DNA from: Bacillus niameyensis
GTDB lineage: Bacteria; Bacillota; Bacilli; Bacillales; Bacillaceae_C
Assembly: GCF_001375535.1 (NCBI RefSeq)
Contig: NZ_LN831197.1
Coordinates: forward strand, 2,286,535-2,350,534
DNA: 64,000 nucleotides
Direction: 5' to 3'
The notes under the pieces: generated by a model
Told to the model about the DNA's origin: nothing
Database searches by the model: none
The model's input: only the letters and a program-made list of their open reading frames with translations
Shown here: positions 1-6,093 of the stretch, in pieces
Layout of the letters: every line of letters starts with the position of its first letter
Position numbering within the stretch: the first letter of the stretch is position 1
Translations under genes and position numbers: made by a program

Positions 1-1648
1 GTGCGTTGACAATAAAATCAACCATTGGAATGACATAGCCCATTGCGACAACGAGTAGCATGAGTAAAATTGTTCGGCTCCAGCGTTCTGTCCAATATGG
101 TGTTGGAGCTGCTCCCTCCTCTTCCTCAGCTATTGGGAATTCCGTTTCTCCCTTTGGTGCAAAGAACATGAGGTGAACAACAGCATAGACTTGGATAAGA
201 ACGCCAATGATCAAGAGAGTTCCCCCGATAGCAAGTAACATCAAGTACGGATCCCAACCTAGTGCTGTTGCATTATCCCCGTATGTTGAATATGCCGTTC
301 TGCGCGGTGCACCGAAAAGGCCAACATAGTGCATCGCCCCGGACATAAAGAGCATACCTACTGTCCAAATGAGCGTTTGAATCACGCCAATTTTATTCAT
401 CTTCGGTGTTAAAACCCGTTTTGAAATATAAGGAACGAGCCAGTAACTAATTCCGAAGAAGGTAAGTATGACTGAGGTTCCGACTGTTAAATGGAAATGT
501 CCAACTACCCATAATGTATTGTGGACGACTTGGTTTAATTGGTTCGTACTTTGAACGATTCCACCTGCTCCAGCTGGGATAAACGCGATCATCGCAACCA
601 TCGGAGCCAAGAATCGAACATCGCCCCAAGGTAATTTTTTATACCATCCAACTAACCCTTTTCCACCCTTTTTTCTAGCAGTACGTTCAAATACTGCAAA
701 CATAGCGTAAGCAGTCATTAAAGAAGGAAAGCCTATCGCAAGACTCATAAATACATGTAAAAATTTGATAGATTGCGAAATTCCTGGATCAATAATTTGA
801 TGATGAAATCCACCCGGAATGTTCATAATAACGAGTGCAATGACAATGATCCTTGTTAGTAAGTCATTCCAACGTTTTCCGCCAATAATCTTTGGAACGA
901 TTACATACCAAGCAGATACGGCAGTTAAATACCAAATATTAACTAATGTATGGCCAAAAGCCCAAAAGAGCGTCCGCGCAACCATGACGTTAATTGTATC
1001 GACCCAACCAGCTGCCCAAGGAATGATCGTTAACACTTCAATTGCAACAGGGATACTTCCAAAGAAGAGAAGAACGAAAACACCTGTTGCAAAAAATGCA
1101 AGAATTGGAACATGTTGTCCTTTATGCTTTTTTCTCCAATCAGCCACATTGATAAAGCAGCCAAAAGCACACATCCAGACACCAAGAACGATAAATACCA
1201 ATCCAACATAATAAATTGGAGATGCGGCCATTGGTGGATAAAATGTGTATAACACACTGGCTTCATTCATGATGATGGGGATAACGGCTAAAACAAAGCC
1301 AATGATCTTCATCCAGAAACCAATCCATGCCATTTTCCTTACTTTAGGTAGAATTCCCCCTAATGTGTGGGAAAGGGCCGCATAAAAATAACCGATTGTA
1401 AAGAAAGCTGTTAAGACCAGTACTAAAAGTAATCCGTGGGCGGTCAGTACTTGGTAATAATTGAGCCACGATGGCAATTCCAGTAATCCAGCCCGGTTTA
1501 ATCCTTGTAAAAGTCCTAAAATCCCGCCAACAAGCAGTGCTGCAAAGGCAACTAATAAATATGATTTCGTAAGTTTTGCATCCTCCGGACTGATCCCCAT
1601 CGCTTGATTAGCCTTTTCCTTAAAATTGTGAGGTACTGCTACTCCCAT
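1..1648 (-). CDS. B-family (ba3-like) heme-copper oxidoreductase subunit I, 3' end cut by window; candidate CuA-type nitric oxide reductase
   Basis: 549 codons are visible, reading off the window edge. Polytopic membrane subunit carrying the two hemes and CuB. Metal ligands are present: low-spin heme His71 (TAHGLLL) and His386, high-spin heme His384 (VVGHFHLTVG), and CuB His233 (FGHTLVN), His282 and His283 (GFHHQ). In Thermus ba3 oxidase and B-family oxygen reductases the motif after the first CuB histidine is GHPxVY, whose tyrosine cross-links to that histidine. Here it reads GHTLVN, so Asn237 sits at the tyrosine position. Tyr248, Ser309 and Thr312 resemble K-channel residues. Loss of the tyrosine is expected for nitric oxide reductases derived from this family (the Bacillus azotoformans CuA-NOR type). 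Start ATG has AAAGGAGG 9 nt upstream. It is the third gene after subunits IIa and II. Family identity is sure; substrate (NO or O2) is inferred. Confidence 0.9.
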   Translation of the reverse strand, partial: MGVAVPHNFKEKANQAMGISPEDAKLTKSYLLVAFAALLVGGILGLLQGLNRAGLLELPSWLNYYQVLTAHGLLLVLVLTAFFTIGYFYAALSHTLGGILPKVRKMAWIGFWMKIIGFVLAVIPIIMNEASVLYTFYPPMAASPIYYVGLVFIVLGVWMCAFGCFINVADWRKKHKGQHVPILAFFATGVFVLLFFGSIPVAIEVLTIIPWAAGWVDTINVMVARTLFWAFGHTLVNIWYLTAVSAWYVIVPKIIGGKRWNDLLTRIIVIALVIMNIPGGFHHQIIDPGISQSIKFLHVFMSLAIGFPSLMTAYAMFAVFERTARKKGGKGLVGWYKKLPWGDVRFLAPMVAMIAFIPAGAGGIVQSTNQLNQVVHNTLWVVGHFHLTVGTSVILTFFGISYWLVPYISKRVLTPKMNKIGVIQTLIWTVGMLFMSGAMHYVGLFGAPRRTAYSTYGDNATALGWDPYLMLLAIGGTLLIIGVLIQVYAVVHLMFFAPKGETEFPIAEEEEGAAPTPYWTERWSRTILLMLLVVAMGYVIPMVDFIVNA

Positions 1649-1663
1649 TTCCTTTTCCCTCCT

Positions 1664-2131
1664 TTATTTCACCGTAATTGTCGTGCTCATATAATGATGG
1701 CCCGCACCGCAATATTCATTACATAAAATTAAATATTCACCAGGTTTATTAAATTTCTGGGTAATCTTTTGAATATATCCCGGCATAACCATCGCGTTTA
1801 CATTCGTTTTAGCAATTTGAAATCCGTGGACAACATCTTTTGAAGTCATTATAAAATGTACTGTTGAACCAGCAGGAATTTCGATATTCCCAGGATTAAA
1901 ATTAAACACTTCCAAAGTCATCACAACTTCATATTCATTTTCACCGATTTCGTAAACACCTGGTTTATCGAAAGGAGCCGTTTCATCTACTTTTTGTGGA
2001 TCAAGGGTTTCTTTATTGCTTGGTGGTCCCATCTCTAATGCGAAAGTTTGGTAACCCGTGATTAACATAAATCCGATTATCATCCCGAAACTAATGATGA
2101 GCCAAATTTCTTCTGAACGACGCATTTTCAT
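1664..2131 (-). CDS. Heme-copper oxidoreductase subunit II with CuA site
   Basis: 155 residues. One N-terminal membrane anchor (about residues 10-31) is followed by an extracytoplasmic cupredoxin domain. The dinuclear CuA ligand set is complete: His102, then Cys137-x-Glu139-x-Cys141-x3-His145-x2-Met148. The domain takes electrons from a cytochrome c or quinol-linked donor and passes them to subunit I. The short length and single helix fit B-family (ba3/CbaB) subunit II rather than the two-helix A-family form. It lies between the small subunit IIa gene and subunit I with spacings of about 15 nt, so the three are one operon. A retained CuA site fits both a ba3 oxidase and a CuA-type NO reductase. 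Confidence 0.93.
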   Translation of the reverse strand: MKMRRSEEIWLIISFGMIIGFMLITGYQTFALEMGPPSNKETLDPQKVDETAPFDKPGVYEIGENEYEVVMTLEVFNFNPGNIEIPAGSTVHFIMTSKDVVHGFQIAKTNVNAMVMPGYIQKITQKFNKPGEYLILCNEYCGAGHHYMSTTITVK

Positions 2132-2146
2132 CTCTCTTTCCCCTCC

Positions 2147-2299
2147 CTAGACTCTAGCCATATAGAGGCCATAAATGATTAAATACGTAATGAAAATGAC
2201 GACTCCAACAACGGTAACCGAAAAAATTGTTCCTTTTACTGTTGTTGATTGACTTTCTTTATCTATATTTTCTTGACGATTTACTTTAGAAGCTGCCAT
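2147..2299 (-). CDS. Heme-copper oxidoreductase small subunit IIa (CbaD/COX2A-like)
   Basis: A 50-residue protein with a polar, Lys/Glu/Gln-rich N-terminus (about 22 residues) followed by one hydrophobic helix (about 24-46) ending in GLYMARV. This is the layout of the single-helix subunit IIa that replaces the missing second helix of subunit II in ba3-type enzymes. ATG start with GGGAGG 8 nt upstream. First gene of the operon, directly behind the Fnr-type promoter, ending 15 nt before subunit II. Identification rests on size, topology and position; no catalytic residues are expected. Confidence 0.8.
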   Translation of the reverse strand: MAASKVNRQENIDKESQSTTVKGTIFSVTVVGVVIFITYLIIYGLYMARV

Positions 2300-2336: not shown

Positions 2337-2379
2337 ATCATAATTGATAATCCTTCTCAATAATGTGACCTGCGTCACA
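2337..2379 (-). promoter_or_regulatory. Fnr-type activated promoter of the heme-copper operon
   Basis: TGTGA-N6-TCACA (2364-2379) is a perfect inverted repeat matching the Bacillus Fnr consensus TGTGA-N6-TCACT/A. On the minus strand a TATGAT -10 hexamer lies at 2342-2337. A start 6 nt further on (about 2330) puts the palindrome centre at -41.5, the standard position for class II CRP/Fnr activation. No good -35 hexamer is visible, as expected for an activated promoter. Leader about 31 nt. Regulator identity is inferred. Confidence 0.75.
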
Positions 2380-3724: not shown

Positions 3725-4822
3725 TTATACCCTCCTCCGCTCCATCACATTAATGCCGATTCCCATCATGACAACAGCCATTAATAAAAGGATACTAATT
3801 GGTTGTAATAAATCCGTAAAGCCGTATCCGTACAATGTCGCTCCTTTTAAGGCTTCCATCCCATATAGTAATGGCGAGATTTTACCAATAGCTAGCATAA
3901 TGGGCGATGATACGATTTCGATCGGCCAATAAGCACCTCCGAGCATGGCTAGGCTAACGGAAAATAGCGGAACAAGGCCATTAAATTGGCTCAAGGTTTT
4001 TGAAAATGCAGCAAGCATCATGCAAAGTGCGACAATGGATAAAACATAGGGGATTAATAAAAGCAATGTCTTGCCAAAACCACCATGAAAATCGACCCCC
4101 GCTCCGTAGCGAAAAGCAACAAAGACAAGAACGACTTGAAAGTAACCCATCAAAAAACTATACAGGAGATTTCCTACATACATCTCCCATTTTGTCACAG
4201 AAGAGACAGTCATTCGGTCCCAAATTCGCGCTCGCTTTTCTTCTAAAATATGAATAACGTTGAATGCAATCGTGTAAATGACGAAAAATAACGAGAATCC
4301 AAATATTCCTTGTAATTGATTATCAATAACCCGTGATTGATCATTACGGAAATTTTCCTTTTTCAACCCAAAAAGTGGTTTTGCATGGGCTGTCTGCCAA
4401 ATCTGTTCAACCTTTTCCTTATTATCGGTTAACGATAGTAAGTGAGCTTTTTGGATTTTTTTCATATAGATCGTTTGGACATATTGTTCTAATAAAGTAG
4501 CATTTTCAGAATGAGCTGTCATAATTAGTGAAAAATCTTCTGCTCGCGCTTCCAGGCCTGCTTCCACTTTACCGTTCTGAATAGCGTCTCTCGCTTCTTG
4601 TTTACTAACATGTTCAAATTCAAATAAATCGGATTCGTTTAACTCTGTTAGCAATGCCCCCATTTCCTGCTCAGACAAATCACTAAATACAGGCACGTAT
4701 ATCTTGCTATAGCTAGATTTACCTACAAAATAAGCAAAGAGGACGCATATAAAAGTCATGATAAGGAACAACCACGGATTGCGAATAAAAAGTCGAATTT
4801 TTGTACGAATAATCCCAATCAT
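3725..4822 (-). CDS. lnrN: ABC-2 type permease, LnrN-like
   Basis: 365 residues. One N-terminal helix (about 15-33), a large extracytoplasmic domain of about 130 residues, then five hydrophobic segments, as in the YhgE/DrrB-like ABC-2 permeases. Start chosen at the ATG that overlaps the TGA of the previous gene by one base (TGATG); the open frame extends 11 codons further without a binding site. Last gene of HK-RR-ATPase-permease-permease, the order of B. subtilis lnrJKLMN (formerly yfiJKLMN), whose LnrLMN exporter gives resistance to linearmycins and other polyenes. Expected to form a heterodimeric membrane channel with the upstream permease. Substrate is inferred from gene order only. Confidence 0.83.
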   Translation of the reverse strand: MIGIIRTKIRLFIRNPWLFLIMTFICVLFAYFVGKSSYSKIYVPVFSDLSEQEMGALLTELNESDLFEFEHVSKQEARDAIQNGKVEAGLEARAEDFSLIMTAHSENATLLEQYVQTIYMKKIQKAHLLSLTDNKEKVEQIWQTAHAKPLFGLKKENFRNDQSRVIDNQLQGIFGFSLFFVIYTIAFNVIHILEEKRARIWDRMTVSSVTKWEMYVGNLLYSFLMGYFQVVLVFVAFRYGAGVDFHGGFGKTLLLLIPYVLSIVALCMMLAAFSKTLSQFNGLVPLFSVSLAMLGGAYWPIEIVSSPIMLAIGKISPLLYGMEALKGATLYGYGFTDLLQPISILLLMAVVMMGIGINVMERRRV

Positions 4823-6093
4823 CACGCGCGCTCCTTTCGTGGAAAAGTAAACCATGCACTAACGATTAGCACAGCAGCTGTTCCCAATAATACGAATAGA
4901 TGACCGATGATTTCATTAACGCCTGCCCCCTGCATCACCTTCATATAAGCCGTCATCGCAGCCCCATTTGGTGTTAACTGCCCGATTTGCACTAATAACT
5001 CTGAAATATTCCCGACAGGTGTAAAACTGCCGCCAACAAAAGAGAGGACTGCGACAAAAGCACTCATAAATAATTTAGATGCAGATTCCGAACCGAGCCG
5101 ATGATTAATAGCCATCAATAATACAGCTATCCCACCCGTTGCCAAAGCTAGGGCTAAGGAGATTAAGAAAAATGGAGAGAATTGTGGCCAATGTACTCCA
5201 TACGCAATGGCTGCAACACCATATAATATAAGCATTTGTAAGGCAGCAAGTACAATGGTCGAGATGAAAACAGCACCAGCATACGCCCATGCAGGTACAT
5301 TAGCAAGCAAAATTCGATCAAGTACATTCCATTTTTTTTCTAAAAAACTGCGTGAACTTACACTAGATGCAATAAATAAAATAAACATGACGCCCATTCC
5401 AATTGTGTAATAAGTAAATGCCCCAATTGGTTCCTTTTTTGACAATGATTCAACTGTAGCAAGTGATTGAGTTGGTACATAGATTGCATCTGGATTGAGC
5501 AAGCCTTCTTTCCCTAAATTTGCCCAAACAGAATATTGTTCTTGAAAATTCCCCACAATGTCCTCGACAATGGCAGAGGACAGCTCCTTCCCTTCATTAG
5601 AGTACACCGTAAGGGCAGGAATCTCTTTTTCTTCTATAAAAAGTAACTCTAATATTTTACTAGTAAAATGAGGTGGAACTTCGATGATCGCCGAATATTG
5701 CTCTGCCGTTTTTAGCTCTTCCAGTTCTGACGAGGGCACTTCCTCAAGGGTTAGAATTGATTCGAGCTCTTCATTATTAAAAATTTGTTCTTTTAGCATA
5801 GTAATCGGCAATAGGCTTTTGGCCCCCATCTCCATTTGCTCTTTTGCTTCTGTTGGAATAGGCAGATCGGTCAATTTCTCAAGAAATAACTCCATTTCCT
5901 CTTCCTCATTCGAATGGTTTACGAGAGCGACTTTTCCAGAGAAAGACTGCACATCTCCATTCATAAGCGATCCAAGAGCAAATCCAAGTATCATAATTAA
6001 TAATAGGGGCATCGCAAGAAGAACAAGCAATTCATCAGGGCTCCGAACAAATAGCAATAATTCCTTTTTAATAAAAGATAAAAGTAACCTCAA
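4822..6093 (-). CDS. lnrM: ABC-2 type permease, LnrM-like
   Basis: 423 residues. N-terminal helix (about 20-44), an extracytoplasmic domain of about 190 residues rich in Glu, then five to six membrane helices. The start is TTG, overlapping the stop of the ATPase gene in TTGA, with GGAGG 11 nt upstream, so translation is coupled to lnrL. Pairs with the following permease and the LnrL-like ATPase. Slightly longer than the roughly 390-residue B. subtilis LnrM. Confidence 0.83.
   Translation of the reverse strand: MRLLLSFIKKELLLFVRSPDELLVLLAMPLLLIMILGFALGSLMNGDVQSFSGKVALVNHSNEEEEMELFLEKLTDLPIPTEAKEQMEMGAKSLLPITMLKEQIFNNEELESILTLEEVPSSELEELKTAEQYSAIIEVPPHFTSKILELLFIEEKEIPALTVYSNEGKELSSAIVEDIVGNFQEQYSVWANLGKEGLLNPDAIYVPTQSLATVESLSKKEPIGAFTYYTIGMGVMFILFIASSVSSRSFLEKKWNVLDRILLANVPAWAYAGAVFISTIVLAALQMLILYGVAAIAYGVHWPQFSPFFLISLALALATGGIAVLLMAINHRLGSESASKLFMSAFVAVLSFVGGSFTPVGNISELLVQIGQLTPNGAAMTAYMKVMQGAGVNEIIGHLFVLLGTAAVLIVSAWFTFPRKERA

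Follow-up and report, generated by a model that had tools for sequence, protein, structure and literature searches.

NO reductases of the bNOR group (CuANOR type I) reduce NO, contain two b-type hemes and receive their electrons from menaquinol and cytochrome c551. The enzyme type is already known: it has been purified, a 2012 study assigned its genes and noted the same replacement of Tyr by Asn that we describe below, and it is found in many Bacillaceae. CuANOR had been purified by 2001, as cited in PMC3475470, and it is the available part of this 2012 paper that ties the cbaC-cbaB-cbaA-senC-cbaD operon of Bacillus azotoformans to the purified protein, whose subunit II begins MHKSEKIWLTLSFGMIMGFM. 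The same text reports an adjacent 46-residue peptide that is a near match to a sequence previously assigned to the CuANOR large subunit, an Asn in place of Tyr in subunit I, and genes for SenC and a six-helix protein after the subunit I gene (PMC3475470). The protein came from strain NCCB 10003, and the genome compared with it is reported as that of LMG 9581T (PMC3475470). In the accessible accounts, the B. azotoformans enzyme is an NO reductase of very high activity (PMC5826923, PMC3475470), and it is reported to be electrogenic (as cited in PMC5826923). Of 433 Bacillota genomes that have Nor and/or Nos, 123 contain bNOR according to figures given in 2024 (available text of PMC11388526).

Used as a search pattern, the 20-residue N-terminus of the B. 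azotoformans protein had one match in 397 genomes of the order and zero in 34 genomes from the family to which the DNA analysed here belongs. The match lies in genome G205 at C42:105051, the contig position that PMC3475470 gives for cbaB1. As the available text of that paper describes, this genome also carries two ba3-type subunits I (L134, L135), both Tyr-bearing, and a type II protein.

The operon and its surroundings

The window, by which we mean the whole 64-kb stretch of DNA analysed, starts with an operon on the minus strand in which the order cbaC-cbaB-cbaA-senC-cbaD is confirmed, all five genes being collinear with those of B. azotoformans. The bNOR of that organism (qCuANOR type I; BAZO_06394, BAZO_06399 and neighbours) also shares with the window the Asn, the CuA motif and the small subunit, and identities over nearly the whole length of the proteins are 69% for CbaA and 75% for CbaB, the two main subunits, 44% for IIa, 63% for Sco and 66% for CbaD. 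The gene for subunit I, cbaA (1..1648, minus strand), runs past the window edge at position 1: 549 of its 559 residues are inside, and the final 10 with the stop codon lie outside and were read from the host genome, where the complete gene is L009:16004-17683. Subunit II (155 residues) is encoded by cbaB (1664..2131, minus strand) and the small membrane subunit IIa (50 residues) by cbaC (2147..2299, minus strand), whose product gave no family above cut-off in a Pfam search. In transcription order, cbaC, cbaB and cbaA are followed by a SCO1/SenC gene (L009:15260-15901; Pfam SCO1-SenC match), by cbaD (L009:14698-15294), which matched nothing in Pfam or NCBIfam, and, just past the edge of the window, by a gene (L009:14229-14597) whose product is a small cupredoxin that begins like a lipoprotein.

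This arrangement recurs among the relatives. A scan of GTDB genomes yielded 144 relatives, of which the best 80 were retained; together with B. azotoformans they give 81 loci, which have CbaB in 81 cases, Sco in 78, CbaD in 78 and IIa in 72 (the last by tblastn). The three loci missing Sco and CbaD include L070 and L091, which stop shortly after cbaA; in the third, L042, neither was seen in the roughly 4 kb past cbaA.

Subunit II carries the motif C-x-E-x-C-x3-H-x2-M, written CNEYCGAGHHYM, and VVH upstream of it, residues that we take to be the CuA ligands and that fit a complete predicted ligand set. A CuA-type subunit II is also a property of the host genome's own ba3-type oxidase. In front of the operon, 65-80 bases ahead of the start of cbaC, an exact TGTGA-N6-TCACA box of the Fnr/Crp type (TGTGACCTGCGTCACA, 2364..2379, listed without a strand) is the sole exact site within the 64-kb window. 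At the B. azotoformans bNOR locus the upstream box has one mismatch. The original prediction had named a IIa subunit, a full CuA site and an Fnr-type promoter element, and each is borne out: the first by a cbaC reading frame alignable to the 46-residue B. azotoformans peptide, the second, as far as the motif goes, by CNEYCGAGHHYM and VVH (which gives the CuA-bearing subunit II typical of bNOR/CuANOR type I), the third by the exact box.

With at most one mismatch allowed, 61 of the 81 loci have a box (exact in 14) no more than 600 bp upstream of CbaB, mostly 225-260 bases from it, and none of 81 control stretches of equal size inside CbaA has one, counts to be read with the relatedness of the loci in mind, which are not independent, and with coding sequence as an easy control. 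No box with at most one mismatch occurs in that interval in the other 20 loci.

Where the locus departs from that of B. azotoformans is in the CuA-like cupredoxin gene after cbaD and the Crp/Fnr-family gene that follows (L009:13491-14180, opposite strand to the operon). The cupredoxin reads CSIFCGAGHSDM, which resembles the CuA motif except that the Glu is missing; a 70% identical gene stands downstream of cbaD only in L049 among the 81 loci. A set of 53 cupredoxin matches considered as further neighbours was discarded, most of them being CbaB picked up by cross-match, at its own position and with about 22-33% identity. A role of the cupredoxin as electron donor or copper carrier for bNOR is possible. 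L021 and L049 have genes about 67% identical to the Crp/Fnr gene close to the operon, and weaker matches occur in eight more of the 81 loci. Since its product is without any cysteine, this regulator may sense by a cofactor other than an Fe-S cluster. The gene next to it, at L009:12156-13412, passes the cut-off of the NCBIfam model for anaerobic sulfatase maturase. Near the Tyr-bearing ba3-type oxidase of the host genome, a Crp/Fnr-like reading frame with C-terminal cysteines (L002:3795-4298; family judged by eye) could encode the protein that binds the box at 2364-2379.

The active site of subunit I

Oxygen reductases of the B family have a tyrosine cross-linked to a histidine, which we take to be Tyr237 in the usual Thermus thermophilus ba3 numbering and which is residue 243 in the numbering of the PDB chain by our alignment. 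The subunit I encoded in the window belongs to the same family as T. thermophilus ba3 and the Bacillaceae ba3-type oxidases and has their His ligands (His71, 233, 282, 283, 384 and 386). Its residue 237 is Asn (codon AAT, 938..940, minus strand), within GHTLVN, aligned with the Tyr of GHPIVY in T. thermophilus ba3. A six-His heme-copper subunit I of the B family is thus combined with a position 237 that lacks the Tyr of the His-Tyr cofactor, just as had been predicted.

Every one of the 83 NOR-type rows of our alignment (two of them type-II-like) has Asn237 and every one of the 24 oxidase-type rows has Tyr; as the split between rows was made on residue 237 itself, only the tree counts as independent evidence. 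Five of the six His are kept in 83/83 NOR-type rows (His71 falls outside that table and is invariant in a separate comparison of 22 rows). Other columns differ as well between NOR-type and oxidase-type rows: Thr (81/83) against Pro (24/24) at position 234, Tyr (81/83) against Leu (24/24) at 240, and Gln (80/83) against Asn (24/24) at 366. The two NOR-type rows without Tyr240 are the type-II-like ones. The ba3-type oxidases keep Tyr244 together with Tyr237 (24/24), whereas Tyr244 is found in 0/83 NOR-type rows and the window protein has Asn237, Tyr240 and Val244. Tyr248 and Thr312 are kept in 83/83 and Ser309 in 81/83 NOR-type rows; these three, with Tyr244, are presumably K-channel positions. 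Tyr240 and the neighbouring columns are our own selection, made among about 30 columns that distinguish the groups and among tabulated functional positions; numerous columns will differ between any pair of clades. Because the alignment kept one protein per locus, L097 is represented in it by its second, type-II-like protein instead of its bNOR, whose motif is counted among the 80 relatives; L126, a fragment from G019, stayed outside the alignment. In L097, a locus titled Mesobacillus maritimus, a type-II-like CuANOR subunit I accompanies the bNOR.

In the tree, built from 55 of the 107 alignment rows (with every third of the remaining bNORs) and drawn midpoint-rooted, a branch with support of 97/80, present in 96% of 200 bootstrap trees, has the bNOR rows on one side. 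The window protein and the B. azotoformans enzyme are both inside, as the original prediction would have it, and the Tyr-bearing rows are outside. The Tyr-bearing group is weakly supported (49/68, 50% of bootstrap trees), and the Thermus row is long-branched. Both type-II-like rows, likewise on long branches, lie far from the rest (100/100).

All 80 relatives (the best 80 of 144), which span many genera, have GHTxVN followed by IWY, hence both Asn237 and Tyr240. This constancy, with the box in 61/81 loci against 0/81 controls, makes chance or sequencing error unlikely. Within the sample of 34 same-family genomes, 16 of them of the window's genus and its own included, five have a copy at at least 81% identity, all in that genus, and 25, those five included, have a relative at 46-51% identity; in G019 only a fragment was found. 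All 21 inspected members of these 25 relatives (L002, L106-L125) have Tyr; four oxidase-like matches (G010, G012, G015, G016) were left out because no locus was assigned to them. With copies in 5 of the 16 same-genus genomes, bNOR is patchy even inside the genus.

Alternative readings and a working scheme

These observations bear on the inference, made originally from the missing Tyr, that the operon more likely encodes an NO reductase derived from the B family as in B. azotoformans, for which a Tyr-to-Asn change is on record (available part of PMC3475470). Orthology across five genes and the position in the tree strengthen it, and we regard the operon as very probably an orthologue of the B. 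azotoformans bNOR that would reduce NO instead of O2.

One could object that Tyr240, one helix turn below Asn237, stands in for Tyr237 in what is still an oxygen-reducing ba3-type oxidase. It is found in the window protein, the B. azotoformans row and 80/80 of the best 80 of 144 relatives, with Leu in 24/24 oxidase-type rows, and a cross-linked tyrosine on another helix is described for C-family oxidases (PMC8780969, in the text available). Yet the purified B. azotoformans protein, on the published accounts available, is a highly active NO reductase (PMC5826923, PMC3475470) and has Tyr240 too, which makes this residue no argument for O2 reduction. From helix geometry, moreover, the cross-linked Tyr would be passed before Tyr240 is reached, which comes seven residues after His233, and the host genome has other oxidases. 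We hold an oxygen-reducing oxidase of this kind to be improbable. Even less credit goes to an oxidase that is promiscuous or has decayed and serves no specific NO function, in which loss of the Tyr would be simple decay. Weak NO reduction is indeed described for bacterial oxidases, the ba3 enzyme of T. thermophilus among them (PMC8780969, in the portion available), but Asn237 is kept in 80/80 of the best 80 of 144 relatives across many genera, five of the six His persist in 83/83 NOR-type rows, and Sco and CbaD follow cbaA in 78/81 loci. Assignment to the sNOR or type II CuANOR group seems almost negligible: the B. azotoformans representative, BAZO_04705, resembles the window in its Asn for Tyr, its CuA and a SenC nearby, as the accessible text of PMC3475470 has it, but it is only about 26% identical over the aligned part, falls on a separate branch (100/100) and lacks Tyr240.

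If the operon encodes a bNOR, as we think, loss of the His-Tyr cofactor in a B-family heme-copper enzyme would have gone with reduction of NO in place of O2. Menaquinol and/or a membrane-bound cytochrome c would deliver electrons to the CuA of CbaB, from where they would pass to the low-spin heme (His71/His386) and on to the heme-CuB site (His384; His233/282/283), where two NO would be coupled to give N2O and water. Protons might come from the cytoplasm by a K-channel analogue in which Tyr248, Thr312 and Ser309 are kept, Tyr244 is lost and Tyr240 is gained. The Sco/SenC protein would load copper, CbaD would act as a membrane partner, and a regulator of the Fnr/Crp family would turn the operon on at low oxygen. 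The absence of Tyr237 came with near-fixed changes, Pro234 to Thr, Leu240 to Tyr, loss of Tyr244 and Asn366 to Gln, of which those at 234, 240 and 244 are on or near the Asn237 helix and that at 366 is elsewhere. For this reason one may speculate, with considerable doubt, that Tyr240, close to Asn237 in sequence, is a relocated tyrosine that serves the NO site in redox chemistry or as proton donor; such a feature would belong to the whole bNOR family and not to this genome in particular.

NO metabolism of the host

A search of the host genome for nir, nar and nos genes, which the original prediction had proposed, was answered in part: two NarG and an Hmp score above cut-off, no match to NirK, NirS or NrfA was found, NirB matches are below cut-off only, and those to NosZ are cupredoxin matches, likewise only below cut-off. 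Three COX1-family genes are above cut-off, namely those of a caa3-type subunit I, a Tyr-bearing ba3-type oxidase (GHPLVY) and the bNOR cbaA; two more matches are below it, and no qNOR was seen among the five. With the caa3-type and ba3-type enzymes present, O2 reduction appears to be served elsewhere. Given two NarG and Hmp, and no match to NirK, NirS or NrfA, NO removal with release of N2O is likelier than full denitrification, and the task of the enzyme would probably be to clear NO arising from nitrate respiration or from outside. Hmp could also remove NO. About 9 kb downstream of the operon are genes for two membrane proteins of about 410 residues (L009:1948-3180 and 4490-5737), one weakly COX1-like, accompanied by two DUF2249 genes and a FeS_assembly_P gene; the two proteins look NnrS-like to us and may belong to NO stress. 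B. azotoformans differs from the host in that the available text of PMC3475470 lists NirK, qNOR and NosZ for it. Production of N2O via CuANOR has been described in the ammonifier Bacillus vireti (PMC4719734, in the part accessible).

NCBIfam offers only weak, below-cut-off models for both subunits and is therefore unable to separate bNOR from the oxidases, and KEGG is reported to label the bNOR family coxA (PMC11388526, as far as its text is available). That a bNOR can be concealed behind an oxidase-like annotation is a general point already in print. In the present case, an operon that NCBIfam matches weakly, of a family labelled coxA, is a probable NO reductase and hence a probable source of N2O. 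The predicted physiology of the host changes with it: the organism would be a nitrate reducer with NO removal, rather than one with merely another oxidase.
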